A stretch of 47,447 bases of DNA from a virus: positions 1 through 47,447 of the IMG/VR virus record IMGVR_UViG_3300042922_000315; one strand, written 5' to 3'. The translations under genes were made by a program, and so were the position numbers. The stretch's first letter is position 1, and each line of letters opens with the position of its first letter. The notes under the pieces were generated by a model. It saw nothing but the letters and a program-made list of their open reading frames with translations, had not been told where the DNA came from and searched no databases. Of the stretch, positions 1 to 18,354 are shown in pieces.

Positions 1-1011
1 AAGAGGGATTCCTGGTACCGTGAAAAGGAAACTGTTAAATCCAAGAAAGTGGACAATACCCCCGCTTCTGCGAACACTGATCCTGAAAAGGTGGATAACC
101 AGCTTGAAACTGTGAACGAAAATCCTCAAAAGCCGGAAAATGAAGATGATCCTGAGGAAGAGACTCTTATATTCGATTTCTGGGATGGGAAGCCGGTAGT
201 AAAGCGATGCTCAGACTGTGAATATTACGATATGGAGTTGGATCACTATCGGGTACTCCATCCAGATACAGAGTTTCCCTGTAATGACTGTGACGACAGG
301 TTGTGTAATTGGATTCCGAAAGCTGGTTCAAAATACAAGGAATCTGTTAGCAAACCTGCTGAAACCGTTATTGAATCAACAGAATCCGTTATCGAGGAGG
401 AATCTCTAGATAGTCCGGTTGAAACCGTAGAAGCCGAGATCATTCAGACGGTACCGGAATATCCGGAAGTAGAGGATTATGAGCGGTACACCTTCCAGGA
501 CGTGCGAGATGAATACGACAAACTGGATGAGTATGTGTCCCACTACCGCAAGAATAATGACACCATGCCCGGACGGCGCAAAGCTAAGATGCGCTTGGAT
601 GCAATAACCCTCCTGAGGAAGGATATGCAGAAACCAAAAGAAACTGAACCTCCTAAGCAAGTACAACCGGAGCTGCCGCTCCTGAAGAATAATGACCAGC
701 GGAAAGAATGGATTGAGAATTATTCCTCCTGGCCAATATGGATTGACCTGGAGCAAACTGGAGAACGGTATTACCGGTATGATTTCGTAAATGGGGTAAG
801 CTTTGTAGTGAGAGTGAGCCTAAGTCATGAATTTCTTGGCTGGCAGAACGGTGGAGGATATTCAAAAACAAATATGGTATATGATCACGAAGAATACTTT
901 CTACTAGGCGGTGCAAGTGGCAAGTATGATCCTGAGAATAAGACTTTCTATGAGAGCAAAACGAATATGTCAACCATGGTTGAGTATCTGAAAGACATGC
1001 AGAAGAAGTGA
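1..1011 (+). CDS. Large Cys-rich phage protein, C-terminal part (5' end cut by window edge)
   Basis: The reading frame is open to base 1, so the true start lies upstream; the GTG at 49 is internal. The product aligns along its length with the C-terminal half of the 796-aa protein at 43380-45770, including an acidic stretch and a Cys cluster (CSDC, then CNDC and a further C) that looks like a zinc site. Relative to that copy it lacks two internal blocks, one after the shared VPEY motif and one before the shared QPELP motif, so the two are indel-rich homologues. No enzymatic motif is recognised. It is followed by the zinc-finger gene at 1019, as in block B. Function unknown. Confidence 0.75.
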   Translation, partial: KRDSWYREKETVKSKKVDNTPASANTDPEKVDNQLETVNENPQKPENEDDPEEETLIFDFWDGKPVVKRCSDCEYYDMELDHYRVLHPDTEFPCNDCDDRLCNWIPKAGSKYKESVSKPAETVIESTESVIEEESLDSPVETVEAEIIQTVPEYPEVEDYERYTFQDVRDEYDKLDEYVSHYRKNNDTMPGRRKAKMRLDAITLLRKDMQKPKETEPPKQVQPELPLLKNNDQRKEWIENYSSWPIWIDLEQTGERYYRYDFVNGVSFVVRVSLSHEFLGWQNGGGYSKTNMVYDHEEYFLLGGASGKYDPENKTFYESKTNMSTMVEYLKDMQKK

Positions 1012-1018
1012 GGCGCCT

Positions 1019-1207
1019 ATGGAATACAACAAGAAGTTGATCGAGAAGGCCAAAGGATCCCGCTGCAAGATTTGTTGGGAGTACATAACCGAGTCCGAGG
1101 TAGACGGATGTGAGTTCCAAGCTTCAAAGACTAGCCGAGGGAATTTTGCTTTTATACATAACAAGTGTTGCTATGGAGTGCCCGGGAAGAAGGTGCAAGG
1201 TGTATGA
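1019..1207 (+). CDS. Small zinc-finger phage protein (block A copy)
   Basis: A 62-aa protein with CKIC near residue 16 and an HNKC motif near residue 48, a probable treble-clef-like zinc site. It starts 7 bases after the preceding stop, in the same arrangement as its homologue at 45778-45963. The two proteins agree up to HNKC and then diverge, marking the point where the downstream gene differs between blocks A and B. Role unknown; nucleic-acid binding is plausible but inferred. Confidence 0.7.
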   Translation: MEYNKKLIEKAKGSRCKICWEYITESEVDGCEFQASKTSRGNFAFIHNKCCYGVPGKKVQGV

Positions 1208-1460
1208 AAGAGATTATTACGCATTACTGATCTGCATCCTCCGGCCAGTTACTCCGGAACAGAGCTTTGACATGATAAACGGCAAGGTAGCTCAGATTCA
1301 GAACGTTACGATAACGTCAGCTGACATTGAGGATATGATTCGGATGAAGGAACAGGGTATGACTCACCGAGAGATCGGAGAATGCTACGGTATTAGTGAG
1401 GAAGCAACATATAGGAGAATTAAGAGGTATAAGGAGAAAAAGGAGGTAGAGCCAGTATGA
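1200..1460 (+). CDS. Helix-turn-helix protein
   Basis: The C-terminal 50 residues form a homeodomain-like helix-turn-helix (MKEQGMTHREIGECYGIS, then a basic YRRIKRYK helix), typical of small phage DNA-binding proteins. The start is uncertain. GTG 1200 has an AAGG-like ribosome site and overlaps the previous gene; ATG 1173 and ATG 1272 are alternatives. The stop overlaps the next start (ATGA), implying translational coupling. Block B has a Dam methylase at this position. About 86 aa with the chosen start. Confidence 0.6.
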   Translation: MYERDYYALLICILRPVTPEQSFDMINGKVAQIQNVTITSADIEDMIRMKEQGMTHREIGECYGISEEATYRRIKRYKEKKEVEPV

Positions 1461-1693
1461 AAAATACATTAGGAGATCTGAATAATCATTTATTTGCGCA
1501 GCTGGAGAGATTGAGCGATGAAGATCTTAAGGGTGATGCCCTGCACGAAGAAATCTCAAGAGCTAAGGCAGTCAATGCAGTAGCTTCACAGATTATAGCA
1601 AATGGTTCCTTGGTACTCGAGGCGGAACGTCTGAATGATGAGCGGTTGAATGCTGATGGTAAGCTGCCTAAAATGCTGGAGGGGAATTCATGA
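1457..1693 (+). CDS. Conserved small phage protein (78 aa)
   Basis: A helical, acidic 78-aa protein with no catalytic motif. It is coupled to both neighbours by ATGA overlaps at 1457 and 1690. Proteins opening with a similar MKNTLGDLNNHLF sequence occur in many temperate phages of Bacillota, usually beside HNH endonuclease or packaging genes, but I know of no established function. It is absent from block B. Confidence 0.7.
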   Translation: MKNTLGDLNNHLFAQLERLSDEDLKGDALHEEISRAKAVNAVASQIIANGSLVLEAERLNDERLNADGKLPKMLEGNS

Positions 1694-2358
1694 ATCGGAT
1701 ATACAGCGAAGAGCACAAGCAGTATATCCGAGATAATATAGTCGGCAGACGGTTCCCAGAGCTTACCAAAATGCTAAATAATCATTTTGGAACCAATTTT
1801 GAAGAGTCAGCAATAAAAAGCTTGGTGTATAGACTTGAACTGGGGAATGGATTAAATGGTGTAGGCCTTAGCGATAAAGGGATAGCTCACAGATTTCAAA
1901 AAGGTCATGTTCCTGCCAATAAAGGCAAAAAAGGTACTGGTGGTTGGGAACCCACTCAGTTTAAGAAAGGCCAGGTTCCGGTGAATTACCGTCCTGTCGG
2001 CTCTGAAAGAGTGAATGTAGATGGATACATAGAAGTTAAGGTTGCTGATCCGAACAAATGGAGAAGTAAACATGTGGTAACCTGGGAGGAGCAATACGGA
2101 TCGGTACCGAATGGACATGTCTTAATTTTCGGAAATGGCAACAAGCTCGACATTAGTCTCGATAATCTATTGTTGGTATCTAGGGCTCAGCTGGCGGTAT
2201 TAAACAAGCATAAGCTGATTCAGAATGAGGTAGAGCTGACGCGAACAGCGATTGCGATAGCGGATGTTAAGATTAAGATTGGACAGAAGCAGAAACAGGC
2301 TAAGGAAAGCAGGAAGAGAGAAAGACGAGCGAAAGGAGCGATTAGATGCAGAGATTAG
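1690..2358 (+). CDS. HNH endonuclease
   Basis: A 222-aa protein. Residues about 120-165 hold an HNH_3-type core (KHVVTWEEQYG, NGHVLIFGNGN, then LDISLDNLLLVSR), where the first H, the central N and the DN pair are the expected metal and catalytic positions. The N-terminus is a basic DNA-binding region with FKKG/FQKGH repeats. It may be a free-standing homing endonuclease or a host-acquired nicking enzyme. It is present only in block A, so it fits a mobile gene that distinguishes the two alleles. The basic C-terminal tail overlaps the next gene. Confidence 0.88.
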   Translation: MNRIYSEEHKQYIRDNIVGRRFPELTKMLNNHFGTNFEESAIKSLVYRLELGNGLNGVGLSDKGIAHRFQKGHVPANKGKKGTGGWEPTQFKKGQVPVNYRPVGSERVNVDGYIEVKVADPNKWRSKHVVTWEEQYGSVPNGHVLIFGNGNKLDISLDNLLLVSRAQLAVLNKHKLIQNEVELTRTAIAIADVKIKIGQKQKQAKESRKRERRAKGAIRCRD

Positions 2359-2519
2359 TTTATACAGTTGACATCGACGAGGAGTTTTCGGATCTTACGG
2401 GATTCTTTGAATTATTGGAGGCTATCGTCGAGGATGAATTAGACTGCAACGTAATTCGGAGTAGTCTGGAGACTGAGGAAGAGACAATTTCTAAAGGTAA
2501 CTGGGAGGATGAGGAATGA
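2346..2519 (+). CDS. Conserved 57-aa phage protein (block A copy)
   Basis: A 57-aa acidic protein starting MQRLVYTVDIDEEF. It overlaps the HNH gene end by 13 bases and the next gene by an ATGA. Its homologue is at 46870-47043; most residues match and both end in a WEDE motif. The conserved small gene sits directly before the 131-aa gene in block A and two genes before it in block B. Function unknown. Confidence 0.75.
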   Translation: MQRLVYTVDIDEEFSDLTGFFELLEAIVEDELDCNVIRSSLETEEETISKGNWEDEE

Positions 2520-2911
2520 GCAAGAGCGCAAAAGAAGCCATGTTTTACCGCAACCAGGGAATCTTATCTGCCCTCGATACAGTTAAGGCCGGAGGGATCG
2601 AAGCCCTGGAGCGCAAGGTGGAATTCTATAACATCACAGGTGTTTCCATGAAGCCGGCGAAGCACGAAGGGGAATATACTCTCTACAAGCTTACTGAATA
2701 TGCTACCGAGACAGCTATTGTCTTCGCGCTAACAGCGCTGATGGAAGAGTTCAGCTTTAGCAGGTATCAGTTGGAGAAGTTCAAAAAGGCATTTGATACC
2801 AGGGTATTTGCAGCGCTGAACGGTGGGGATATGGATCAGTCAATGGCCGATCAGGTTGATAGGTTGGCCAGGGAAGCGGGGATTGAGATTGTGATTCCGG
2901 ATGCGAAATAG
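2516..2911 (+). CDS. Conserved phage protein, 131 aa
   Basis: A helical protein beginning MSKSAKEAMFYRNQG. No motif identifies a function. It is homologous to the truncated gene at 47237-47447: the first 84 bases of the two are diverged, then 127 bases from 2600 are identical. This gene is therefore where the two ends of the window meet. It closes the plus-strand accessory block; the next two genes run on the minus strand. Confidence 0.75.
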   Translation: MSKSAKEAMFYRNQGILSALDTVKAGGIEALERKVEFYNITGVSMKPAKHEGEYTLYKLTEYATETAIVFALTALMEEFSFSRYQLEKFKKAFDTRVFAALNGGDMDQSMADQVDRLAREAGIEIVIPDAK

Positions 2912-2923
2912 CTAAAAGAGGAT

Positions 2924-3124
2924 TTAGAATAATATCCAAAGAGATACCAAGATAAATACGGTAATTAATATTGAGCAAATAATAATTCCCTCTTTTAGAG
3001 TTTTCTTGTCATTTGTATGAGGCAGTGGATGGCCGCAATGAGCGCAACATCCTGACCTAACCCATAAATACTCACCACAAAAAGTGCATTTGGTATTTTG
3101 TTGATTGATAAAATTGATCGACAT
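2924..3124 (-). CDS. Zinc-ribbon single-pass membrane protein (copy 1)
   Basis: A 66-aa protein with a zinc ribbon at the N-terminus (CTFCGEY then CAHCGHPLP) followed by one hydrophobic helix at residues 46-65, predicting a cytosolic zinc ribbon tethered to the membrane. A GGAGGC ribosome site precedes the ATG. It is a paralogue of 3229-3435 on the same strand. Both run against the surrounding late-early operon, as phage cargo (moron) genes often do. Function unknown. Confidence 0.75.
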   Translation of the reverse strand: MSINFINQQNTKCTFCGEYLWVRSGCCAHCGHPLPHTNDKKTLKEGIIICSILITVFILVSLWILF

Positions 3125-3228
3125 AACTTGCCTCCGTTTGGTGAAGTTAATATTATCATTATAAATTAAGCTAGTATCTTATTCAAGTCAGATTAGCTAA
3201 ACTAAAGATCTAGACGGGTATCCAAAAC

Positions 3229-3435
3229 TCAATGGGTATACAAGTACAACATAATAATAACTATTATCAAAATATATATGGCACCAATTACTAAGGAAAT
3301 TTTAGTGCCTTCTTTCATAGCTTTTCTGTCGAAAGTTTGAGGCACTGGACGGCCACAATAAGGGCAGTATTCTGGCCTAAGATCTATATATTCGCCACAA
3401 AACTCGCATTTTGGGCGATGAGGAATAATTACCAT
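3229..3435 (-). CDS. Zinc-ribbon single-pass membrane protein (copy 2)
   Basis: A 68-aa protein with the same layout as 2924-3124: a ribbon CEFCGEY then CPYCGRPVP, a conserved D-(R/K)-K-(A/T)-(M/L)-KEG linker, then a hydrophobic helix at residues 46-65. The start is supported by GGAGGT. The AT-rich 104-base gap between the copies may hold a promoter for copy 1. The pair looks like an old tandem duplication. Possible roles include a membrane sensor or superinfection factor, but this is speculation. Confidence 0.75.
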   Translation of the reverse strand: MVIIPHRPKCEFCGEYIDLRPEYCPYCGRPVPQTFDRKAMKEGTKISLVIGAIYILIIVIIMLYLYTH

Positions 3436-3540
3436 GACTTACCTCCAGAGTTAATTTTAATACCATCATATGACAAGAGATAAAAATACACAAGTTAAAA
3501 GAGGATTAAAAATGTAGGATAAATAAATCAAATATTTTAT

Positions 3541-3556
3541 GTCCAAAATATTGGAC
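3541..3556. promoter_or_regulatory. Palindrome before the 3571 gene
   Basis: GTCCAAAATATTGGAC is an inverted repeat with 6-base arms and an AATA centre. It ends two bases before the ribosome site AGGAAGGAG of the gene at 3571. It could be a repressor operator or an mRNA hairpin that hides the ribosome site. No partner protein can be named. Confidence 0.4.
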
Positions 3557-3570
3557 AGGAAGGAGATAAT

Positions 3571-4278
3571 ATGAGTAATTTAATCAGGGAATGGGACGAG
3601 CATGTAATCGCAGGCAACCGGATCAGCCGTGACCTGGAGAGTTTTGACAGGGTGATGAAGATTGCGGAGCTGCCGGATAGTAAGGTGGCGCTGTATGTAA
3701 ACGGAGGTACAACCTACATAGATTCAGTTCTTCCGGAAGAGGTCATGGGAGTACTGAAGACCATAGTTACTAATCAGCTGGTGGATATCCGAACCAGGAA
3801 GGAAACCGAGCTTAAGAAACATATGAATACTTGGAAGCCGGCAACGGTCAATACAGTGTTTAACGCAGATTTTTTGGAGTCAGCAGAACCGCTGATAATA
3901 CCGAAGAAAAAGCCGGCAACCATGAATCCGGAATTCGAACAGGCTGTCCAGGAGATGGAGCAACAGGGGAAGACTAGGCCAGATCCGATTGAGGAAAAGC
4001 TGGTCGATAGCCTGAAAAAGAGAGGGGATCGGTTGGGACAGCAGGAAGTAGAGGCAAAGATGAAGCAGCAGCCTCCATTGTCAGCTGACGAGATTCTGAG
4101 ACAAGACATTGATAAGGTTCGAGAGCTATATGAGGATGATACAGTCACTGTCAGTGTCATCGCTGCCAGGTACGGAGTTAAGAAGACGGACGTATACACT
4201 TTTGCATCTAAGAATCGTTTCGCACGGATGAAAAAGCCTTCCGGATTTTTAGATTCTCCGAAAAAGGAGCGTCCCTGA
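3571..4278 (+). CDS. Phage protein with C-terminal HTH-like segment
   Basis: A 235-aa protein. Residues 1-75 form a folded domain (DSKVALYVNGG), the middle is Lys/Glu/Gln-rich and probably disordered or helical, and residues 175-220 resemble a helix-turn-helix (VRELYEDDTVTVSVIAARYGVKK). A strong AAGGAGA site precedes the ATG. It is the first plus-strand gene after the zinc-ribbon pair and sits just upstream of the late regulator. Likely DNA-binding, but the family is not recognised. Confidence 0.7.
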   Translation: MSNLIREWDEHVIAGNRISRDLESFDRVMKIAELPDSKVALYVNGGTTYIDSVLPEEVMGVLKTIVTNQLVDIRTRKETELKKHMNTWKPATVNTVFNADFLESAEPLIIPKKKPATMNPEFEQAVQEMEQQGKTRPDPIEEKLVDSLKKRGDRLGQQEVEAKMKQQPPLSADEILRQDIDKVRELYEDDTVTVSVIAARYGVKKTDVYTFASKNRFARMKKPSGFLDSPKKERP

Positions 4279-4346
4279 AAAGCCTAACAGAGTAAAAATG
4301 ACAAAGGCTGAATTCATGGAAGCTTGGGTGGGAGGACGGTGATGGA

Positions 4347-4775
4347 TTGACAGACGAAATCAGGGAAGAAAATGAAAAGAAAAAAGAATATCTTAACGGC
4401 TATAAGAATTTATGCTGGAAAGTTAGATCCCTTGAGGAGCAGTTATCTTCTCTCCGCGAAGTAGAGCAATCGCCTAAGATACAACAGATGTCTGATATGC
4501 CTAAGGGAAGTAAGCAAACGGATTTGTCCGACCTTATGGTGCGTGAGGAAGCGTTATTCGCGAAGATTAAGGAGAAACGGGTTGAATGCCTAGAAAAGAA
4601 GCTGGAGATAGAGGGAAGGATCGCGGATATGACTGATGGGATACAAAGCTCGGTATTACATAGCAGGTATATTTGCTGTAGAACATGGGATCAGATTGCT
4701 TATGATCTAGGTTATAGTAGTAGACAGATAATTAACATACACGGTAAAGCTTTGATACATTTTAACATTTCGTAG
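4347..4775 (+). CDS. Late-gene activator, sigma-70 region 4-like (DUF1492/ArpU type)
   Basis: A 142-aa protein from a TTG start with GGAGGA 11 bases upstream; the nearby ATG at 4342 reads only two codons. Residues 1-100 are coiled-coil. Residues 103-135 (LHSRYICCRTWDQIAYDLGYSSRQI) match the sigma region 4-like HTH of ArpU/DUF1492/RinA-type phage late transcription activators. Its place just before the non-coding stretch and packaging genes fits control of the late operon. The target promoter cannot be identified from sequence alone. Confidence 0.8.
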   Translation: MTDEIREENEKKKEYLNGYKNLCWKVRSLEEQLSSLREVEQSPKIQQMSDMPKGSKQTDLSDLMVREEALFAKIKEKRVECLEKKLEIEGRIADMTDGIQSSVLHSRYICCRTWDQIAYDLGYSSRQIINIHGKALIHFNIS

Positions 4776-4980
4776 TATTTCATACTGGGTCTGTGATATT
4801 ATCAAACTGCCAAGGAAATGAAAGTACATTCGATTGTACGACCTCCTGACGGTTGCCAGGTTGATAAGGCCTGGTGGCTGTTTAGGCAATATGTTGACTT
4901 ACTATTTCAAACGAAGCCTACAAATCGGCAGCAAATGGCGTTCAGGCAGATAACACTCGTACGATAACGAGTTAATCCGT
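4776..4980. other. Gene-free stretch before tRNA-like RNA
   Basis: No convincing reading frame is present. A short inverted repeat, CTCGT-ACGATA-ACGAG (about 4956-4971), lies ten bases before the tRNA-like element. The region lies downstream of the putative late activator and may hold its target promoter, but no consensus can be claimed. Confidence 0.4.
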
Positions 4981-5052
4981 GGAGCCGTAGCTCAATAGGG
5001 CAGAGCATAGACCGTATGCTAACGGATGCAGGTTCGAAGCCTGCCGGCTTCC
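4981..5052 (+). ncRNA. tRNA-like element with aberrant anticodon arm
   Basis: A 7-bp acceptor stem (GGAGCCG with CGGCTTC), a D-arm (GCTC/GAGC) and a perfect T-arm (GCAGG TTCGAAG CCTGC) are clear. The anticodon arm is not canonical. The best 5-bp stem, AGCAT/ATGCT, encloses loop AGACCGT without U33 and shares bases with the D-stem. No CCA is encoded. It may be a decayed tRNA or a tRNA mimic. A GNRA-capped hairpin and a terminator follow directly. Confidence 0.55.
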
Positions 5053-5070
5053 TTCCCTCGCAAGAGGGAA
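5053..5070 (+). ncRNA. GNRA-capped hairpin downstream of tRNA-like element
   Basis: TTCCCTC-GCAA-GAGGGAA is a perfect 7-bp stem with a GCAA tetraloop, starting one base after the tRNA-like fold. With the terminator at 5094 it suggests a structured transcript of about 150 nt. Confidence 0.5.
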
Positions 5071-5093
5071 CTCCCCCTCATATATCCCTTGAT

Positions 5094-5131
5094 AAAGGCA
5101 CCGGAGGCTTGATCTCGTAACGGTGCCTTTT
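5094..5131 (+). terminator. Rho-independent terminator
   Basis: AAAGGCACCG pairs with CGGTGCCTTT across a 17-nt loop and ends in T residues. It closes the transcript carrying the tRNA-like element. Confidence 0.8.
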
Positions 5132-5143
5132 AGACAAGAAAAG

Positions 5144-5164
5144 AGCCGGTTCATGACGCCGGCT
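5144..5164 (-). terminator. Terminator of the 66-aa membrane protein gene
   Basis: AGCCGG pairs with CCGGCT. Read on the minus strand the hairpin is followed by CTTTTCTT, placing it 16 bases beyond the end of the gene at 5180-5380. Confidence 0.65.
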
Positions 5165-5179
5165 ACAATTTCTTTTGGA

Positions 5180-5380
5180 TTAATGCCTGTGCTTTGTTTC
5201 AATTATTATCCTGATTGCTAAGATGATTATGTAGGTGAATGTGAATCCGACCATACAGAATATCATAGTGTCACAGGATGCAATAAACGCTTGTATCTTT
5301 GTGTAAATTGGAACCACGAAGGTACTAAGAAAAAGCGGGCAGAAATCCCATAGAGCAGTAGTCGTCTTTTTACGCTTCAT
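5180..5380 (-). CDS. Small membrane protein, two hydrophobic segments
   Basis: A 66-aa protein with a basic N-terminus (MKRKKTT), hydrophobic segments at about residues 14-34 and 38-60, and a basic tail. AAAGGAGA precedes the ATG and a terminator follows the stop. It is transcribed against its neighbours with its own signals, as expected for a cargo gene expressed in the prophage. Function unknown; superinfection exclusion is one guess. Confidence 0.65.
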   Translation of the reverse strand: MKRKKTTTALWDFCPLFLSTFVVPIYTKIQAFIASCDTMIFCMVGFTFTYIIILAIRIIIETKHRH

Positions 5381-5555
5381 AAAATTTCTCCTTTGATTTT
5401 GTATGTAGGACTTACATTGCTAACAGATGTAATTAACAAATGCCATTAGAGATTTTATGAAGCGAACAAACTACTGAACTATGATGTTACAATAAGGATA
5501 ATCGAAGAAGGTAAATCGACGACTACTTTGCATTTTCGTAATGTTTTGAAATTAA

Positions 5556-5612
5556 TTATGTAATTGTTTCGGATCGCGCTAATATAGCGCTAAAATCATT
5601 CGATAGTTGCAT
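5556..5612 (-). CDS. Candidate 18-aa peptide
   Basis: On the minus strand AAAGGAGGT lies eight bases before an ATG opening an 18-codon frame (MQLSNDFSAILARSETIT). A second ribosome site, GGAGG, precedes an overlapping 18-codon frame starting at 5635. Both follow the promoter at 5663-5691. Coding status is unproven; it could equally be a small RNA. Confidence 0.25.
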   Translation of the reverse strand: MQLSNDFSAILARSETIT

Positions 5613-5662
5613 TGTACATGACCTCCTTTTGACATGCGTCCTCCTAAATTTGTAACATACTA

Positions 5663-5691
5663 ATCCTAGCATAATTTTAATAAAATGTCAA
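5663..5691 (-). promoter_or_regulatory. Sigma-A-type promoter, minus strand
   Basis: TTGACA, a 17-base spacer, then TAGGAT when read on the minus strand. It would drive a leftward transcript through the tiny frames at 5635-5556. Confidence 0.6.
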
Positions 5692-5710
5692 ATTATACTA
5701 AATTAGTCAG

Positions 5711-5730
5711 GCATCTTCGGGGTGCTTTTT
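5711..5730 (+). terminator. Rho-independent terminator
   Basis: GCATC-TTCGG-GGTGC followed by TTTTT. No plus-strand gene ends nearby, so it may end a small plus-strand RNA running antisense to the tiny minus-strand frames. Confidence 0.6.
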
Positions 5731-5798
5731 AACATATTATATATAAAACTATTGGAATATATTAGAAGTAAACGCATATGATTATATAGAAACGTAAT

Positions 5799-5807
5799 TG
5801 GTATAAT
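5799..5807 (+). promoter_or_regulatory. Extended -10 promoter
   Basis: TGGTATAAT lies 53 bases before the ATG of the 32-aa peptide. No good -35 is seen, as is usual for extended -10 promoters. Confidence 0.45.
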
Positions 5808-5859
5808 TATAATCCTTCGAACATATCATTAAGTGTGATGAAAAAGGAGGGTTTATTTT

Positions 5860-5958
5860 ATGTCCAATTTTATTAGTGATATCCCCTTTATAGTGGTATG
5901 TATTAGCTATACTATAGTAGTCTGGCGAATCACCGGGATTAGTAAGAAAGAAAAATAA
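5860..5958 (+). CDS. 32-aa membrane peptide
   Basis: ATG is preceded by a near-perfect AAAAAGGAGGG site. The peptide has a hydrophobic stretch at residues 4-22 and a basic tail (GISKKEK), the layout of type I toxin peptides and other single-pass phage microproteins. It has its own extended -10 upstream and a terminator downstream (6042-6069). A toxin role is inference; no antisense antitoxin is proven. Confidence 0.55.
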   Translation: MSNFISDIPFIVVCISYTIVVWRITGISKKEK

Positions 5959-6041
5959 TGAGTAATAACCTACCCTTAGTATTGTGCATAGCATGATACG
6001 CAGGGAAGGTTTTAAATAAACAACATATAAAACTATAATGC

Positions 6042-6069
6042 AAGGGGACTGTTAACGCAGTTCCTTTTT
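6042..6069 (+). terminator. Rho-independent terminator
   Basis: GGGACTG pairs with CAGTTCC around TTAACG and is followed by TTTTT. It ends the 32-aa peptide transcript and separates it from the packaging operon. Confidence 0.8.
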
Positions 6070-6102
6070 GATACCCAGAACTACGAATGTGAGGTGGTGC
6101 TT

Positions 6103-6672
6103 GTGAATGAGTTATGCCGTAAATGTCTATTTGCAAAGGAATGTGAAATATCATGTCCAGCCTTTATTGAACTGTATAAGATCTGCGATGAGCAGGACGC
6201 CAAGGATAAGACAATACTTATTCGTAATCTTAAAAAACTGATTGGTATACGAGATGCTGAGCCAAGTATGCAACTAAAGCACCTGGGTAATAAGATAATT
6301 AATCACTTCGCTGAGTTAAGTTTCATCAAAGAATGGAATATTAAAATAGGCTATGTGATTAGTCAGGAAAAGAAATCGGGAAAAAGAATTGTATATGCAG
6401 ATTGTAGGAAGGTGCAGGAAGTCTTTAGAGCTTACCTGCCTTTTGATTTTATAATAACGTTTTATGAGCAGAATACCGGAATACTGAATGAGAATCAATT
6501 GAAAATTCTTATGCTGCATGAACTGAAGCACATAGGCATGGGTGAAAGAGGTTTAATGATTGTACCGCATGATATAGAGGATTTCAGCAGCATTCTGAGT
6601 AAGTACGGGCTTGATTGGGATACTTACGGAAAGGAGCTACCGGACTTGTTTGGAGGTGAGCAGCCTGAGTGA
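6103..6672 (+). CDS. Putative phage metallopeptidase (zincin)
   Basis: A 189-aa protein from GTG 6103, chosen because GAGGTGG lies six bases upstream; GTG 6094 sits inside that site. Residues 145-149 (HELKH) are an HExxH zinc motif, followed by VPHDIEDF, the pattern of the putative phage metallopeptidase family found beside terminase genes. The N-terminus adds a Cys cluster (CRKCLF, CEISCP) that may bind a second zinc. It is the first gene of the packaging operon. The substrate is unknown. Confidence 0.75.
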   Translation: MNELCRKCLFAKECEISCPAFIELYKICDEQDAKDKTILIRNLKKLIGIRDAEPSMQLKHLGNKIINHFAELSFIKEWNIKIGYVISQEKKSGKRIVYADCRKVQEVFRAYLPFDFIITFYEQNTGILNENQLKILMLHELKHIGMGERGLMIVPHDIEDFSSILSKYGLDWDTYGKELPDLFGGEQPE

Positions 6673-7066
6673 ACAAAACTTAACAAAATACGAGCCAACA
6701 GAGAAAGAGAAAAACCTGCTTGAAGTCTTGATAAACCCAGAAAATAGGATGAAATCAATTACGGATATCTGTAAACTTGCAAAATGTTCACGGACGATAT
6801 ACTATGAGGCATTTGATAAGCCCGAGTTTATTGAGATTTATAAGCAGCAGTCAACCGACCTGGTTAGGCAAAATATTGCTCCCATTCTTAATGCATTCAT
6901 TAAACAGGCGCAGCGTGGTAGCTTTCAACATGGCAAGATACTTCTTGAAATGGCAGGGATGTATACAGAAAAATCGGATGTTAAATTATCTGGGACCATG
7001 GATATTAATAATCCATACGCCGGATTAACTACTGAGGAGCTGAAGAAGTTGATAACAGATGAATAG
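6665..7066 (+). CDS. terS: Terminase small subunit
   Basis: A 133-aa protein. Residues about 30-55 (ITDICKLAKCSRTIYYEAF) form the N-terminal HTH used for packaging-site recognition, and the following helices form the oligomerisation core. The C-terminus (NPYAGLTTEELKKL) resembles TerS tails. The likely start is CTG 6665, eight bases after GGAGGTGAG; no ATG, GTG or TTG in frame has this spacing. It overlaps the preceding stop and, by 8 bases, the large subunit. Confidence 0.82.
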   Translation: MSEQNLTKYEPTEKEKNLLEVLINPENRMKSITDICKLAKCSRTIYYEAFDKPEFIEIYKQQSTDLVRQNIAPILNAFIKQAQRGSFQHGKILLEMAGMYTEKSDVKLSGTMDINNPYAGLTTEELKKLITDE

Positions 7067-8474
7067 AAATAGAGATCTACTTATACTCGGGGCAAAAATA
7101 GAGCTCGCAAAGCGTGAGTTCTTTTTTTATTGTCAGTTGAAAGCCCCAGATTTCTATAAAAATGATAGGGAATACCTTAAGCAGCTGTGTCATGAATTCC
7201 AAAAATTTCTTGAATCAGAAGAAAAGGTAATGGTGGTTAATGAGCCTCCTAGACATGGTAAGAGTCGTACCGTGGGTCTTTTGGTAGAGTGGGTACTTGG
7301 TAAGGATAAGACGAAGAAAGTCATGACCGGATCTTATAACGAGACGCTCTCAACCATGTTTTCTAAGAATGTGCGCAATAGCATTATGGAGGTAAAGGCA
7401 GATCGATATAAGCCGGTTTTCTCGGATGTTTTCCCTGGGGTAGTTATCAAGCGTGGTGACGGTGCTATGAATCTCTGGAGCCTAGAAGGGGGATACAATA
7501 ATTACCTTGCTACATCCCCCGGTGGAACCGCAACGGGCTTTGGTGCTGACTTAATGATCATCGACGACCTGATCAAGTTGGCTATTGAGGCCAGCAACGA
7601 GAATGTCAAGGAAGGACACTGGGAATGGTTCACGAACACCATGTTATCTCGTCTTGAAGAGGGCGGCAAGATCATAATCATTATGACCCGTTGGGCGAGT
7701 GACGACCTGGCAGGTAAGATATTGGAATACTACAACGACCAGGGCATAAAAGTACGGCACGTCTGCATGAAAGCTCTAATTAATAAAGACACAAAAGAGA
7801 TGTTGTGCAGTGAGATCTTGTCCTATGAATCGTACATGGAAAAGACAAGGCTCATGGGGGAGGACATCGCAAGCGCGAACTACCAACAGGAGCCGATTGA
7901 CCTTAAAGGCAGGCTGTATTCTAGCTTCAAGACTTACATGGAACTCCCGAAGGATACTAGTGGTAATCTGCTATTCACGGCTATCAAAGCATACTGTGAT
8001 ACTGCAGACGAGGGCACGGACTACCTGTGCCTCATCATTTACGGAGTATACAATGGAGAGGCTTATATCCTTGATATTTACTATACCGATAAGCCAATGG
8101 AAGAGACTGAGCCAGAGACAGCCAGAAGGCTCTATGAGCTGAAGGTGAGTCTTGCCGACATCGAGAGTAACAACGGAGGGCGTGGATTCGCACGGTCGGT
8201 AGGAAGGATCCTGAAGGAAGTACACCGTAGTAACAGGACAAGGATACACTGGTTCCACCAAAGCAAGAACAAGATAGCGCGCATCCTCTCAAACGCAACG
8301 TGGGTCATGGATCATATTTACTATCCAGCAAATTGGCGCGATCGATGGCCGGAATATTATCAGGCAATGGTCAAGTACCAGCGGAAAGGCAAGAATGCAC
8401 ATGATGATGCTCCTGACTGTACAACCGGTGTTGCTGAAACTATAGATAAGAACGGTATTTCCGTACTCAAATAA
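7059..8474 (+). CDS. terL: Terminase large subunit
   Basis: A 471-aa packaging motor. The ATPase Walker A is NEPPRHGKSR (residues 61-70) and Walker B is LMIIDDL (about 164-170), followed by the TRW coupling motif (MTRWAS). The C-terminal RNase H-like nuclease begins with AYCDTADEGTD and ends near HDDAPDC. It cuts and pumps the concatemer into proheads with TerS and the portal. Full length for the family. It overlaps TerS by 8 bases. Confidence 0.95.
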   Translation: MNRNRDLLILGAKIELAKREFFFYCQLKAPDFYKNDREYLKQLCHEFQKFLESEEKVMVVNEPPRHGKSRTVGLLVEWVLGKDKTKKVMTGSYNETLSTMFSKNVRNSIMEVKADRYKPVFSDVFPGVVIKRGDGAMNLWSLEGGYNNYLATSPGGTATGFGADLMIIDDLIKLAIEASNENVKEGHWEWFTNTMLSRLEEGGKIIIIMTRWASDDLAGKILEYYNDQGIKVRHVCMKALINKDTKEMLCSEILSYESYMEKTRLMGEDIASANYQQEPIDLKGRLYSSFKTYMELPKDTSGNLLFTAIKAYCDTADEGTDYLCLIIYGVYNGEAYILDIYYTDKPMEETEPETARRLYELKVSLADIESNNGGRGFARSVGRILKEVHRSNRTRIHWFHQSKNKIARILSNATWVMDHIYYPANWRDRWPEYYQAMVKYQRKGKNAHDDAPDCTTGVAETIDKNGISVLK

Positions 8475-8489
8475 AAGGCAGGTGATAAT

Positions 8490-9884
8490 TTGGAATTAGA
8501 TGCAATTAAGAAAATAATAAAGAAATATGCTCCGTATCATGCGGATCTGAATGTAAAATCAGAGATCGCGGAGAGATACTACCAGAATAAGAATGATATT
8601 CTCTTTCCAGATAAGTCTAAAGTGAAGGACGAATCCGAGAGTCCGTTAAGAAATGCAGATAACCGGATCCCGTCAAACTTCCATGGCTTACTGGTTAATC
8701 AGAAGGCTTCCTATATGTTCACCGCGCCGCCGTTGTTCGATATTGGGAACGATGCAGCTAATAAGCGAATCACAGAGGTGCTGGGAGATGAGTATGCCAA
8801 GACTTGCAAGGATCTCTGTATTAACGCTTCGAACAGCTCCGTAGCGTGGCTGCATTATTGGAAGAACGAGAAGGATGAATTTGAATATGGGGTAGTTGAT
8901 TCGAAGCAGGTTATTCCGGTATGGTCAAAGAGTCTGAAAAAGAAGCTCTTTGGGGTGTTGAGAATATATTCGGATATCGACGATGACGGAGAAAGCTATA
9001 CCGTGTATGAATATTGGACTGAGATCGAATGCCAGGCGTTTCGCCGGAAGGATTCTGATTCACTTGATGATGCTTTAGAAGAATACATGATGTTTACAAC
9101 CTTCATTGAGGATACGCAGAACAGTGAAATTTCTAGTATATTTAGACATGAGTATGAGTCGGTTCCGTTTATACCTTTCTTCAACAATAATATTAATACA
9201 GATGATCTGGTTAATATAAAAAGGCTGATAGATACATATGACAAGGTATTCAGTGGTTTTGTCAATGATCTCGAGGATATCCAGGAGATCATTTTTATTT
9301 TATCCGGATACGGTGGCACAGATCTGAAGGAGTTCGTCCAAGATCTGAAGGAATATAAAGCTATCAAGGTAGATGCGGATGAAGGCTCCGGTGTTTCCGC
9401 CCTTACTATTAACATTCCGGTGGAAGCCAGGGAGAAGCTGCTGACCATAACTAGAAAAGCTATCTTTGAACAAGGACAGGGTGTTGACACCCAGCCTGAT
9501 AGTTATGGTGATAAGTCGGGAGAGGCTTTAAAATTCATGTATTCCGTATTAGAACTAAAAGCCGGCCTGATGCAAACGGAATTTGAACTTGCCTTTGGTA
9601 CCTTTGTAAAAGCCATCTGCAGGTATCTTGGAGCTGAAGGAAAATCAATCACACAGACCTGGACGCGTACGGCCATTAAGAGCGATACCGAATTAGCTGA
9701 TATTGCTCAGAAGAGCTCCGGTATTATCTCGCGCAAGACCATTATTAAGCACCATCCGTGGGTTGAAGATCCCGAACAGGAAGAAAAGCAGATTAAAAAA
9801 GAGCAGCAAGCAGCCGTTGATGAAGCAGATCAGTACAAGAATACATTTGGACAGGATGTGAGTAACGATGGCAAAGAAGAGTGA
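8490..9884 (+). CDS. Portal protein (SPP1 gp6-like)
   Basis: A 464-aa protein from TTG 8490 with AGGTGAT upstream. It has the SPP1-type portal features: NRIPSNFHGLLVNQKASYMF near residue 55, VVDSKQVIPVW, and a helical YDKVFSGFVNDLEDIQE segment ahead of the tunnel-helix region. The C-terminus is rich in acidic and Gln residues. It forms the dodecameric DNA gate at one prohead vertex and docks terminase. It overlaps the MuF gene by 17 bases. Confidence 0.9.
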   Translation: MELDAIKKIIKKYAPYHADLNVKSEIAERYYQNKNDILFPDKSKVKDESESPLRNADNRIPSNFHGLLVNQKASYMFTAPPLFDIGNDAANKRITEVLGDEYAKTCKDLCINASNSSVAWLHYWKNEKDEFEYGVVDSKQVIPVWSKSLKKKLFGVLRIYSDIDDDGESYTVYEYWTEIECQAFRRKDSDSLDDALEEYMMFTTFIEDTQNSEISSIFRHEYESVPFIPFFNNNINTDDLVNIKRLIDTYDKVFSGFVNDLEDIQEIIFILSGYGGTDLKEFVQDLKEYKAIKVDADEGSGVSALTINIPVEAREKLLTITRKAIFEQGQGVDTQPDSYGDKSGEALKFMYSVLELKAGLMQTEFELAFGTFVKAICRYLGAEGKSITQTWTRTAIKSDTELADIAQKSSGIISRKTIIKHHPWVEDPEQEEKQIKKEQQAAVDEADQYKNTFGQDVSNDGKEE

Positions 9885-11637
9885 TGAATATTGGCAGAAA
9901 CGCTTTGAGATCCTTCAGGAGGCATTGCTTAATAAGGGTGATAAATATTACCTTGAACTGATTAAACAATATGAGAAGGCTTCTAGGAATATCCAGGATA
10001 AGATATTAGTCTGGTATATCCGTCTAGCGGAGAATAACGAGGTGTCACTTGCCCGAGCCAAACAGCTACTTACTAATCAGGAACTTAAGGAATTCAAGTG
10101 GACTGTTGACGAGTATATCAAATACGGCCAGGAGAATGCGATTAACCAACAATGGGTAAAGGAGCTGGAAAATGCATCTGCCAGGGTACATATATCAAAG
10201 CTGGAAGCAATGCAAATTGAAATACAGCAGCAAGTAGAAGCACTGGGCGGTAGTATGGATGTTAAATTGCCCGAGCTACTACAGGAAATTTACACCGAAG
10301 GGTATTATCAGACTGCTTACGAAATACAAAAAGGTCTTAATGCTGGACGGGACATTCAAAAGCTTGATACATCCGCAATCGAAAAGGTTATGTCAAAGCC
10401 ATGGACGGTAGATAACAAGACTTTTTCTGACCGGATATGGTCTAATAAAGAGAAGTTGCTTGATACTCTTAATAAAGACCTTACGCAAAGTATTATTAGA
10501 GGTGATGCGCCGGATAAACTGATAAAGACTATAGCAGATAGGTTTGATGTCAGTAGAAAGCAGGCTGGCAGGCTTGCCATGACTGAATCGGCATATTTTA
10601 GCTCTTTATCTCGATTAGATAGTTATAAGGATTTGGGAGTCGATAAGTACAAGATAGTTGCTACATTAGATTTAAAGACCTCTCAGATATGTAGGAGCCT
10701 TGACGGAAAAGTTTTTGCCGTTAGTGAGTATGAAGTAAGCGTTACAGCTCCTCCATTCCATGTTTATTGCAGGAGTACAACAGCACCTTATGTTGAGGAT
10801 TTAGAAGACCTATTAAGTGGTCAGAGGGCTGCAAGGGATCCTGTAACTGGCAAAACAGTTTATGTTGACAATATGACCTATCCGGAATGGTATGAAAAAT
10901 ATGTTAAAGATAACCCGGAAGCTCTGCTGAACGAGAAGAAAATTAAGAACGTTAGCGCTGATCAGAAACAATATGATGAATACAAACAGAGACTTGGTGC
11001 TGAGAACCTTCCTAAAACCTTTGATAAGTTTCAAGATATGAAATATGCCACTGATACAACAGAGTATGGCGTATTAAAAGCTCAGGTAAAAGGGATGTCA
11101 TATTATGATAAAGCAATTACTAATGAGCCTGAGATCACTGATCATGTTAAGAAGGTAGCTGAAGCTACCGAAATGGATATGGGTGGGCTTGATAAAAGAA
11201 TCAAAAGCAAGGATACCTATCTTGAGAAAATCCAGAGAAAGTACAAACCAAATGGTAATGAGTACGAAGTGAAAGATATTATTAGATACACATACACTTC
11301 CAATCCTCTTGACTTATCTAAGAAGACCTTAAATGCTATTGATACACATAGAAACATGGGTTATAATACAATTGAGATTGACAATAGCTGGCTTAATGAT
11401 AAAAACCCTTACAAGGGAATCAATACAACCGTTCAAGCTCCCAATGGGCAGAAGTTTGAAATACAATATCATACTCCTGAAAGTTTTGAGCTTAAAAACG
11501 GTGAGATGCATAATCTATATGAAAAGCAAAGACTTATCAAAGATGAGGAGTCAGAGGAATTCATTGCTTTGCGCAACCAAATGTATGATTTATCAGATAG
11601 GCTTATAGTTCCATTTGAGATAGAAAGGGTGAAATGA
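9868..11637 (+). CDS. MuF-type minor head protein with RelA/SpoT-like C-terminal domain
   Basis: A 589-aa protein. Residues 1-170 are helical. Residues 225-310 are the SPP1 gp7/MuF domain (RLAMTESAY, CRSLDGKVF, PPFHVYCRSTTAPY). Residues 440-560 carry an extra domain whose motifs follow the RelA/SpoT synthetase fold in order: RIKSKDTYLEKI, VKDIIR (D470, R473), YKGINTTV, then FEIQYHT (E531, Q533). In alarmone synthetases the equivalent D and E bind metal and catalyse pyrophosphate transfer. The usual His after the Tyr motif is Asn here. MuF proteins with C-terminal toxin domains are known from temperate phages; activity here is inferred. Confidence 0.85.
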   Translation: MAKKSDEYWQKRFEILQEALLNKGDKYYLELIKQYEKASRNIQDKILVWYIRLAENNEVSLARAKQLLTNQELKEFKWTVDEYIKYGQENAINQQWVKELENASARVHISKLEAMQIEIQQQVEALGGSMDVKLPELLQEIYTEGYYQTAYEIQKGLNAGRDIQKLDTSAIEKVMSKPWTVDNKTFSDRIWSNKEKLLDTLNKDLTQSIIRGDAPDKLIKTIADRFDVSRKQAGRLAMTESAYFSSLSRLDSYKDLGVDKYKIVATLDLKTSQICRSLDGKVFAVSEYEVSVTAPPFHVYCRSTTAPYVEDLEDLLSGQRAARDPVTGKTVYVDNMTYPEWYEKYVKDNPEALLNEKKIKNVSADQKQYDEYKQRLGAENLPKTFDKFQDMKYATDTTEYGVLKAQVKGMSYYDKAITNEPEITDHVKKVAEATEMDMGGLDKRIKSKDTYLEKIQRKYKPNGNEYEVKDIIRYTYTSNPLDLSKKTLNAIDTHRNMGYNTIEIDNSWLNDKNPYKGINTTVQAPNGQKFEIQYHTPESFELKNGEMHNLYEKQRLIKDEESEEFIALRNQMYDLSDRLIVPFEIERVK

Positions 11638-11638
11638 C

Positions 11639-11842
11639 GTGACGTATTATAAATTAACCGATTTAGAAAACGAAGGTACCGTAGTAAGAGCCCGGGGAAG
11701 AAGCCAACAGAAATATATAAAGGATAAAGGATGGATTGAGAGCGGTGTCATGATAAAGTATTTCAATACAGATAGTCCATATTACGATTCCTATACCGAA
11801 ATCTCTGAGGAAGAAGCAAATAATATAATAGCAGCTATGTGA
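11639..11842 (+). CDS. Small protein after MuF, candidate immunity protein
   Basis: A 67-aa protein from GTG 11639, one base after the MuF stop, ended by its own terminator. It has a beta-rich N-terminus (YYKLTDLENEGTVVRARG), an aromatic centre and an EISEEEANNIIAAM helix. Tight coupling to the gene with the RelA-like domain makes it the natural candidate to neutralise that activity in the lysogen. It could instead be a minor structural or chaperone protein; nothing in the sequence decides. Confidence 0.6.
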   Translation: MTYYKLTDLENEGTVVRARGRSQQKYIKDKGWIESGVMIKYFNTDSPYYDSYTEISEEEANNIIAAM

Positions 11843-11844
11843 AG

Positions 11845-11870
11845 CCATCTATCATATGATAGGTGGTTTT
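11845..11870 (+). terminator. Terminator after the MuF cassette
   Basis: CCATCTATCA pairs with TGATAGGTGG around TA, followed by TTTT. It sets the MuF gene and its partner apart from the rest of the head operon. Confidence 0.8.
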
Positions 11871-11891
11871 ATTATGCTCAAAAGGAGGGTT

Positions 11892-12245
11892 ATGAAGGTA
11901 AACGTATTAGGGACTGAATATGAAATTCAAAGGAAGGACTACGCAGAGGATCCCGATTTTAAAAAGCGCGAGAGCGTTGGATATTGCGATTCGTTATTAA
12001 AGATAATTGTTGTTTGTAATATGCTGACTTACCCCGGATATGAGGATGAACCGGCTGAGGCAATTACCTTAGCTGAAAAAGAAATTCTTAGACATGAGAT
12101 CATTCATGCATTTTTCAGGGAGAGCGGTCTCTGGAATAACAGCGGAACCGTAGATGCATGGGCGACGAATGAGGAAATGGTTGACTGGATAGCCTTACAG
12201 TTCCCAAAAATTCTCAAGGCTTTTCAGGAAACAGATTGTTTATAG
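11892..12245 (+). CDS. Zincin-like phage protein (HEIIH)
   Basis: A 117-aa protein from ATG 11892 with GGAGGG just upstream; ATG 11874 would add six basic residues. An HExxH motif (RHEIIHAFF) at about residues 69-73 and a later NEEMVDW give the zinc and third-ligand pattern of gluzincin-like phage peptidases. Such genes recur in head modules of Bacillota phages. Head maturation or capsid-associated proteolysis is possible but unproven. Confidence 0.7.
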   Translation: MKVNVLGTEYEIQRKDYAEDPDFKKRESVGYCDSLLKIIVVCNMLTYPGYEDEPAEAITLAEKEILRHEIIHAFFRESGLWNNSGTVDAWATNEEMVDWIALQFPKILKAFQETDCL

Positions 12246-12259
12246 AGGAGGTGTGTAAA

Positions 12260-12460
12260 TTGGAAGTGTTTAAGGATATGAATGTGCTTAATGGACAGGA
12301 AATGGTATGTATGACTAATGAAGAATTTAATGGTCGCATTGCCGAGGCAACCGAGCGTGGATACCGGCAGGCAGAGAAAAATAAGAAAGTGCAGAACAAT
12401 GAAATTGTAACTGAACTTGTTAAGTCCTTAGCAAGAGCTATCTTGCTGATAGCAGATTAG
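12260..12460 (+). CDS. Small phage protein, 66 aa
   Basis: TTG start with GAGGAGG upstream. A helical, charged protein with MTNEEFNGRIAEATERGYRQAEK in the first half. No family is recognised. A terminator follows at 12487, so it ends a short sub-operon between the MuF cassette and the scaffold gene. Confidence 0.6.
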   Translation: MEVFKDMNVLNGQEMVCMTNEEFNGRIAEATERGYRQAEKNKKVQNNEIVTELVKSLARAILLIAD

Positions 12461-12486
12461 AGAGGCGGTGATCCTGCATCTCCCGC

Positions 12487-12512
12487 AAGGCCTGGGTTAA
12501 GGTCTTATTTTT
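12487..12512 (+). terminator. Rho-independent terminator
   Basis: AAGGCCT pairs with AGGTCTT around GGGTTA, followed by a T-rich tail. Confidence 0.65.
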
Positions 12513-12543
12513 ATGACTAAAAATAGATAATGGAGGTTTTATA

Positions 12544-12987
12544 ATGAAAACGTATGTAGGTACAAAAATACTTGAAGCAAAACCAATGAACCGTGGAGAT
12601 TATAATAATTACAGAGGATGGCCTATTCCTTCGGATGAGAATCCTGCTGATGAAGGATATCTTGTTAGATATCAGGATGGCTATGAATCATGGTCTCCCA
12701 AAACAATCTTTGATGAGAGCTACAGCGAATACAATGAGACAAAATTGCCTTTTACGGCCATAGGAATGCAAAGCAAAGACTACAAAGAAAGATTTAGAGC
12801 GGAGTATATGCAGCTTGTAATCAGATATGAAGGGCTTAGAACTATGCTTGAAAAATGGGACAAAGGCGAATTAACTTTCTCCCCAACATGTCCAAGAAGT
12901 ACTTATAATATTCAAATCAAGGCAATGGTAGATTATATTGCGATTCTTGAAGCAAGGGCAGTTATGGAAAATATTAACCTGGAATAA
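12544..12987 (+). CDS. Two-domain phage protein (crAss001_48-related C-terminus)
   Basis: A 147-aa protein. Residues 1-60 match a common phage domain of unknown role (YVGTKI, GYLVRYQDGYESWSPK), and residues 80-147 are helical with CPRSTYNIQIKAMVDYIAILEARA, resembling the crAss001_48-related family. The family assignment is from memory of the pattern. Its place between head genes is unusual because these domains more often sit in early or accessory regions, so it may be an inserted cargo gene. Confidence 0.65.
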   Translation: MKTYVGTKILEAKPMNRGDYNNYRGWPIPSDENPADEGYLVRYQDGYESWSPKTIFDESYSEYNETKLPFTAIGMQSKDYKERFRAEYMQLVIRYEGLRTMLEKWDKGELTFSPTCPRSTYNIQIKAMVDYIAILEARAVMENINLE

Positions 12988-13112
12988 GCGTATTGCTACG
13001 ACTTATTTTATGTCCGGAACGACCCTAAACTATCACTACTCTGCCGGAGAATAAACGGCTGAATCCCAATACCCGGAGAGCGGGAATAAAAATCTATGGA
13101 GGAATTAAAATT

Positions 13113-13721
13113 ATGCAATGGTTATTAGATTTAATCGCAAAGCACACGAAGGACGGTGTTCTTGATACAGAAGCCCTGACAAAGGAAGTCAATACGGAGT
13201 TTCCTAAGCATGCGGTACCGAAAGCCGACTTTAATACTCTCAATGAGCAACTAAAGACGGCGAATGGCACAATAGCAGATCTGAAAAAGAACAACACTGA
13301 CAATGAGACTCTTCAGGTGACTATTAAGGAACACGAAAAGACTATAGCCGGACTGAAGACTGAGGGTGAGAAGACACGGAAGGAATATGCTCTGAAGGAT
13401 AAGCTCAGGGAACAGAATGTTACTGATCCGGACTACCTCATCTACAAACATGGTGGAATTGATAAATTCAACTACGATAAGGACGGCAATCCGATAGGCC
13501 TTGAGGATACTGTGAAGCCTTACAAAGAGTCGATTCCTCAAATCTTTAAGACGACAGGTAATACACAGACAAATTACAACCCTGCAGGAGGCGGTGGAGG
13601 AAGTGCTGGGAAGAATCCTTTTGCGAAAGATTCCTTCAACTTGACTGAACAGGGCAAATTATTAAGAGAGAATCCGGCACAGGCCAAAGAACTAGCTTCA
13701 GCTGCCGGAATAATAATTTAA
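13113..13721 (+). CDS. Capsid scaffolding protein (GP20-like)
   Basis: A 202-aa protein. Residues 1-30 hold MQWLLDLIAKHTKDG and residues 40-110 a long charged coiled coil. A Gly-rich linker precedes the capsid-binding C-terminus (FNLTEQGKLLRENPAQAKELA). This is the standard layout of minor structural GP20/scaffold proteins, placed immediately before the major capsid gene. It directs prohead assembly and is then released or cleaved. Confidence 0.85.
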   Translation: MQWLLDLIAKHTKDGVLDTEALTKEVNTEFPKHAVPKADFNTLNEQLKTANGTIADLKKNNTDNETLQVTIKEHEKTIAGLKTEGEKTRKEYALKDKLREQNVTDPDYLIYKHGGIDKFNYDKDGNPIGLEDTVKPYKESIPQIFKTTGNTQTNYNPAGGGGGSAGKNPFAKDSFNLTEQGKLLRENPAQAKELASAAGIII

Positions 13722-13742
13722 GAAAGGTAAAGGTGAAAAAAT

Positions 13743-14744
13743 ATGCCAGGAACAAGAATTTCAGATGTAATTGTACCGGAACTATTTAACAGATATGTTA
13801 TTAATAGAACAATGGAATTATCTGCTTTATTTCAAAGTGGTATAGTGGTAAATAGTGAGACGTTTGACGCATTAGCAAGTGAAGCAGCGAGAACGCACAA
13901 CATGCCATTTTTCGAAGATCTACAAGGAGAATCCGAAGCGATTATAGAGGATGTAGGAACCGCAAAAAATAAGATTACATCCAACAAGGATGTTTCCACT
14001 ACTATTTTCAGAAAAATGTCATGGGAAGCTTCCAACCTGTCGGCAGCATTAGCAGGCTCGGATCCAATGAAAGCAATTGGAGACTTAGTTGCAGGCTTTT
14101 GGGCAAGAGATATGCAAAAGGAGTTAATTACTATTCTTAAAGGTGTATTCGGGACATTTACACCAGAAGGTGGCGCTGCTACAACAAGAATGGCCGACCA
14201 TATTCTTGATTTAAATGCGCTTTCTACTGCAGGCGCCAAGATTATATCTGCCAATGCTTTTATTGATGCGTGTCAGTTGTTAGGTGACGCACAAGCGCAG
14301 TTATCGGGTGTAGCAATGCATAGCGCGACGAAGTCTTATCTTAAGAAACAGAATTTAATTGCTACAGAAAGAGATTCGACAGGTGTTGAGTTTGAAACGT
14401 ATCAGGATCGTAAGGTAACCGTTGATGATGGTTGCCCTGTTGCAAGTGGCGGAGTATATACCACATTCCTTTTCGGTAATGGAGCAATAGCGTTAGGCAA
14501 TGGTAACCCTGTTGGATTTGTTGCAACCGAAGTGGATAGAGATCCAGATTCCGGCGCAGGTGTGGATAAGTTGTACAATCGTAAAGCATTTATTTTACAC
14601 CCTAGAGGAATTGCGTACACAGGAGCGACACGTGCGAATGTAGAAACACCTACAAGAGCAGAGTTAGAACTTGCGGAAAACTGGAATCCGGTATACGAAC
14701 CGAAGCAGCTGAGAATTGTAGCAATTAAACATAAGATTGGTTAA
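13743..14744 (+). CDS. Major capsid protein
   Basis: A 333-aa coat protein placed between scaffold and head-tail connector genes. It starts with GTRISDVIVPELFNRYVINRTMELSALFQSG in sense, typical of HK97-fold coat proteins in SPP1-like head modules, and continues with a GAALAGSDP-like spine helix region and a C-terminal P-domain (HPRGIAYTG). It builds the icosahedral shell. Codon use is AT-richer than in the neighbouring genes, consistent with high expression. Confidence 0.88.
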   Translation: MPGTRISDVIVPELFNRYVINRTMELSALFQSGIVVNSETFDALASEAARTHNMPFFEDLQGESEAIIEDVGTAKNKITSNKDVSTTIFRKMSWEASNLSAALAGSDPMKAIGDLVAGFWARDMQKELITILKGVFGTFTPEGGAATTRMADHILDLNALSTAGAKIISANAFIDACQLLGDAQAQLSGVAMHSATKSYLKKQNLIATERDSTGVEFETYQDRKVTVDDGCPVASGGVYTTFLFGNGAIALGNGNPVGFVATEVDRDPDSGAGVDKLYNRKAFILHPRGIAYTGATRANVETPTRAELELAENWNPVYEPKQLRIVAIKHKIG

Positions 14745-14749
14745 TTCAT

Positions 14750-14774
14750 GGGCGCTGAGTAATCGGCGCCTTTA
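14750..14774 (+). terminator. Weak terminator after the capsid gene
   Basis: GGCGC pairs with GCGCC, followed by TTTATT. It is probably leaky, giving more capsid transcript than connector transcript. Confidence 0.55.
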
Positions 14775-14790
14775 TTAAGGAGCTGATATC

Positions 14791-15138
14791 ATGATTGAGC
14801 TAATGAAATTTAAGAAGCTTCTGGGATTAGAAGCCTCTGATGCATCGAAAGATTTACCTTTGCAATTTGCCCTAGATGATACTCAGGATATCATATTAAA
14901 CTACTGTAATCTGTCTGAACTGCCTAAGGCACTTGAAACAACTGCATACCGCATGGCCATTGACTTGTACCGGAATGAAGCCCCGGGGGAGGAATCAACT
15001 CCCTTAGGGGTAGTATCCTCTATCAGTGTGGGTGATACATCAACAAGTTTTAAAAGTACAACGACTGAGTTTAAGGATCATCTACTAAAGGATTATAAGT
15101 CACAGCTAAAACGGTTTAGGAAGGTGACATTTACATGA
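14791..15138 (+). CDS. Head-tail connector (gp6-like)
   Basis: A 115-aa protein. The helical N-terminal half (LKFKKLLGL-type opening, LDDTQDIILNYCN) and the loop GVVSSISVGDTSTSF fit the Phage_connect_1/gp6-like adaptor family that forms the ring under the portal. It overlaps the next gene by ATGA. Confidence 0.82.
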   Translation: MIELMKFKKLLGLEASDASKDLPLQFALDDTQDIILNYCNLSELPKALETTAYRMAIDLYRNEAPGEESTPLGVVSSISVGDTSTSFKSTTTEFKDHLLKDYKSQLKRFRKVTFT

Positions 15139-16358: not shown

Positions 16359-16359
16359 T

Positions 16360-18351: not shown

Positions 18352-18354
18352 ATC

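Follow-up and report, generated by a model that had tools for sequence, protein, structure and literature searches.

The 47,447-nt stretch of DNA analysed here (the window) is the whole of an IMG/VR entry classed as linear, and we consider it about 87% probable that it represents two related phages from one sample, stitched by the assembler onto one circular genome. Although listed as linear, the record probably consists of one complete circular phage genome of 44.7 kb to which 2.6 kb from a second phage is attached. The swappable block of genes that distinguishes its two ends is real and of an ordinary kind, i.e., phage mosaicism exposed by an assembly artefact. The involvement of two related phages, proposed in an initial annotation of this sequence, is thereby supported.

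Self-BLAST of the window confirmed the earlier observation that diverged versions of one module occupy both ends. The region 44421-47447 is a diverged counterpart of 1-2726, in which blocks of 73-96% identity are separated by unrelated DNA:

1-462 vs 44421-44885, homologous block, 86.7% identity, E 1e-145
479-619 vs 45082-45222, homologous block, 82%
663-785 vs 45416-45538, homologous block, 73%
1000-1168 vs 45759-45927, homologous block, 80%
2317-2386 vs 46841-46910, homologous block, 81%
2514-2726 vs 47235-47447, homologous block, 95.8%

The coordinates first given for this duplication were off by no more than a few bases, but the homology on the right extends further, to 2726 and 47447, the latter being the physical end of the window. 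The offset between copies grows from 44,420 at the left edge to 44,721 at the right edge, and the proposal that it equals the phage genome length holds for the right edge, which would give an implied length of 44,721. The outer genes match in the two arms (arm A at the start of the window, arm B at its end), and the cargo between these anchors is unrelated DNA. Because differences between the arms in the aligned parts of the 799-aa anchor gene are mainly silent (dN/dS about 0.2), both arms look like real, functioning genes. Phage terminal redundancy was rejected as an explanation, since copied terminal repeats would be identical, not diverged as these are.

The end of the window carries a more specific signature. 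Its final 127 bases are identical to positions 2600-2726, in a run of exactly 127 that stops at base 47447, and this pair is the sole repeated 127-mer in the window, which contains no repeated 128-mer:

2600..2726, no strand, 127-bp putative de Bruijn node, first copy, identical to 47321-47447
47321..47447, no strand, 127-bp putative de Bruijn node, second copy, reaching the last base of the contig

Mismatches cluster directly before the node (9 of 86 bases differ, then 0 of 127; Fisher p 2e-4), and none of 40 complete IMG/VR control contigs had a terminal repeat longer than 12 bp. A JGI metagenome assembly has been described using metaSPAdes with k = 33,55,77,99,127 (PMC10434106), and metaSPAdes contigs that break at repeats keep end overlaps of exactly maxK (COBRA, PMC10914622). 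Taking a maxK of 127 for this record over from that documented JGI pipeline, the 127 identical bases would constitute an end repeat of exactly maxK length, which is the defining property of a metaSPAdes k-mer fork overlap. Mosaic phage variants are likewise known to yield some unitigs in common and others that differ (Phables, PMC10563150). Because the terminal identity is exactly the size of a metaSPAdes fork overlap, co-resident variants are favoured among the two origins initially suggested, the other, tandem prophages, being less likely and not needed. Both modules need not share one molecule, and the window ends themselves are most likely an assembly feature. When IMG/VR was searched for exact matches to the node and to the beginning of arm A, no second contig carrying the continuation of variant A came up, although records very similar to the window may be missing from the searched set.

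The preferred reading implies a simple course of assembly. A temperate tailed phage (B), whose genome would close into a 44,721-bp circle, would have been present in the same sample as at least one related phage (A). Within the 131-aa gene the two would share an identical stretch of at least 127 bases and would differ upstream of it, so that the de Bruijn graph would contain a single node with two incoming paths. The assembler would then have started in arm A, entered the node, gone once round the B circle and halted on reaching the node again:

1..2599, no strand, arm A, second related phage variant, putatively attached to the circle through the k-mer node; diverged homologue of 44421-47320
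2727..47447, no strand, predicted complete circular genome of variant B, 44,721 bp; supported by the 127-bp identity and the unbroken 131-aa frame

Arm A meets the shared sequence at position 2600. The frame of the 131-aa gene must stay open across the closed joint, because the 127 bases would be one place, and it does read unbroken from 47447 into 2727. From these sequence features we infer one circle and one foreign arm. The stretch 2727-44420 could be variant A's, variant B's or mixed sequence, and its assignment to B is provisional. A relative of its terL gene is annotated as circularly permuted.

Arm A and the gene containing the node encode the following:

1..1011, + strand, variant A version of the 799-aa early protein, C-terminal 336 aa, truncated at the contig end; phrog_15077, E 4e-27; 86.7% DNA identity to 44421-44885
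1019..1207, + strand, 62-aa protein, anchor, CxxC...HxxxC; 80% DNA identity to 45778-45927
1110..1460, + strand, HTH protein, arm A cargo; PF13384, E 4e-6; phrog_11376, E 2e-18
1457..1693, + strand, 78-aa protein, arm A cargo; phrog_2044, E 3e-33
1690..2358, + strand, HNH endonuclease, arm A cargo; PF13392, E 6e-13; phrog_1891, E 3e-67
2346..2519, + strand, 57-aa protein, anchor, counterpart of 46849-47043; homologous start, 2317-2386 vs 46841-46910
2516..2911, + strand, 131-aa conserved gene, right anchor, containing the 127-bp node; phrog_17690, profile match

The cysteine/histidine pattern of the 62-aa protein is zinc-ribbon-like. The HTH protein probably starts near 1200, because its homologues in two related loci (L003 and L017) begin around there. 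The HNH protein scored 48.7 bits against PF13392 (curated cut-off 24.8), which places it in this family, and its cargo role would, going by the family, be that of an endonuclease. The PHROG label of the 78-aa family, "RNA polymerase beta subunit", looks doubtful. Relatives of the 131-aa gene in L003, L017, L098 and L214 adjoin the same next gene. In related phages the 131-aa gene sits next to the 235-aa gene; in the window, two similar small ORFs, apparent paralogues, are inserted between them (2924-3124 and 3229-3435, both - strand).

Arm B offers a different set of genes between the same anchors:

43371..45770, + strand, 799-aa early protein, variant B, left anchor; phrog_15077, E 1e-54
45778..45963, + strand, 61-aa zinc-ribbon-like protein, left anchor of arm B; self-BLAST homology
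45924..46724, + strand, D12-class N6-adenine DNA methyltransferase (Dam-type), arm B cargo; PF02086, E 4e-28; phrog_56, E 4.5e-72
46729..46801, - strand, tRNA-Ala (GGC), complete, opposite to the early operon; ARAGORN; Rfam 65.7 bits
46849..47043, + strand, 64-aa protein, counterpart of 2346-2519; self-BLAST; L017 gene match
47040..47240, + strand, 66-aa protein, arm B only; no family match

The methyltransferase scored 99 bits against PF02086 (cut-off 22) and carries the DPPY motif within VFIYADPPYL, as is characteristic of the D12 class. Searches with it returned distant relatives only (26-36% identity), and its family membership suggests a role in restriction protection. The tRNA-Ala(GGC), located between the methylase and the next gene, is at most 89% identical to sequences in Lachnospiraceae genomes. 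The idea that such a tRNA is a general part of Dam cassettes was rejected: none of the 16 related loci scanned contained a tRNA, including the 8 with a Dam-like gene. A single L017 gene is matched, at about 50%, by the 64-aa protein as well as by its 57-aa counterpart in arm A.

Related loci, including those of other Lachnospiraceae prophages, point to a variable accessory locus between the early 799-aa and zinc-ribbon genes and the 131-aa gene. The phrog_15077 gene is immediately followed by a Dam-type methylase in L159 and L222 and by the 78-aa and HNH pair in L228, and other genes come after this anchor in L223, L225, L226, L229 and L230. L098 lacks cargo, its zinc-ribbon gene, 131-aa gene and next gene coming straight after the early gene. 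The arm A cargo adjoins the 131-aa gene in L003 and L017, and in L217 and L216 a methylase and the 78-aa and HNH pair are found on the opposite side of a 131-aa homologue. Other prophages carry an HTH protein, a PAPS-reductase-like protein, a DnaD-like loader, a kinase-like protein or ParA near this place. The comparison suggested earlier, whether these anchors flank other cargo in related prophages, gave a positive answer: they flank Dam, the 78-aa and HNH pair, other genes or nothing. The locus had also been described as a recombination hot spot flanked by conserved genes; a variable locus with conserved flanks is what we observe, and it does not demonstrate a hot spot in the mechanistic sense, as most relatives are distant. 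A small set of cargo genes turns up repeatedly around these anchors, a pattern that fits ordinary phage mosaicism, and ordinary homologous or illegitimate exchange within the conserved flanks would be the likely origin of the variation. Methylase and nuclease are not exclusive alternatives, a possibility rejected because both are present in L040 and L044. Neither the 799-aa nor the 131-aa protein had relatives when searched against IMG/VR, and a plasmid search gave no match. In L003, tandem paralogous proteins with signal-peptide-like starts are encoded between the HNH and 131-aa genes (8729-9205 and 9291-9749, both - strand).

The remaining genes (terminase, portal, capsid, tail, endolysin, integrase, regulatory, recombination and replication) are those of a typical temperate tailed phage. 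A tRNA-Gly with the unusual anticodon ACC (4981-5052, + strand, Rfam 40 bits) lies in a gene-poor region that precedes the terminase genes. Two features bear on the state of the template:

29582..29606, no strand, attP-like core next to the integrase; its 25 bp match the 3' end of host tRNA-Gly(CCC) exactly
29756..30913, - strand, integrase; phrog_1, E 3e-31

The 25-bp core matches tRNA-Gly(CCC) of Lachnospiraceae genomes and sits between the lysis genes and the integrase. It is likely the attP core, which suggests the 3' end of tRNA-Gly(CCC) as the integration site. The core is undivided, the contig passing from the lysis genes through the intact core into the integrase, and both record ends fall inside phage genes. 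Since a lone integrated prophage would be cut at att, the template would be an excised or packaged phage, or else a tandem array.

The last of these corresponds to two related prophages side by side in a chromosome, with the window running from one module through the middle att to the second. Such an arrangement would account for homologous and diverged modules, for a compatible gene order and for a single undivided att core beside the integrase. However, a circular phage shows an undivided core too, so the core cannot separate the two situations, and no host DNA was recognised around the core or elsewhere in the contig. Tandem prophages would moreover require the late genes of both to have been collapsed or resolved without a break, and they do not by themselves predict an exact k = 127 identity at the last base of the contig; we therefore regard them as quite unlikely. 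Taking the contig literally, one phage genome would truly bear both modules 44 kb apart. This is extremely improbable, as the homology reaches exactly both contig ends, arm A starts mid-gene and the overlap at the right end has the size of a k-mer.

A further possibility concerns the biology behind the fork: co-infecting phages of one population might now be swapping the methylase and nuclease modules, with a fixed crossover in the 131-aa gene near 2600. This is compatible with an assembly fork and adds a further claim to it. Relatives do bear other cargo at this spot, and the sharp edge described above, where 9 mismatches in 86 bp give way to 127 matching bases, may mark a crossover at 2600. 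Nodes nevertheless need identity of at least k, so that the edge is partly a selection effect, and the left flanks are 13-27% diverged, so on that side A and B have not recombined recently. We consider ongoing exchange unlikely, and retain the reading of two co-resident variants joined at a shared k-mer.

For the record itself, the consequence of this preferred reading is that gene counts, length and completeness are off, and tests based on end repeats overlook such circles. Such cases would be detected across virus databases by screening contig ends for an internal match of exactly maxK length. For phage biology, the locus is one clear case in which phages of Lachnospiraceae-like Clostridia carry methylase or nuclease as alternative cargo at a shared anchor. 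To our knowledge, this cargo pair at the phrog_15077 / 131-aa anchor has not been described before.

Several known systems resemble what is seen here. Temperate siphophages of Lachnospiraceae and other Clostridia have mosaic accessory loci in which conserved flanks enclose alternative cargo, including orphan Dam-type methylases and HNH nucleases, as in this locus. The pairing of the 78-aa (phrog_2044) and HNH (phrog_1891) genes is also shared, with the 78-aa gene just upstream of HNH here as in 40 of the 42 other viral HNH loci with enough upstream DNA (L003-L048), i.e., with no difference in order. On the assembly side, graph components of variant phages of the type resolved by Phables consist of shared sequence on a circular path together with alternative branches the size of a module, and overlaps of the type described by COBRA have exactly maxK length at the break, both as in the reading adopted here. 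Unlike in those cases, the contig runs 2.6 kb into the other branch, such that simple end-repeat tests call it linear.
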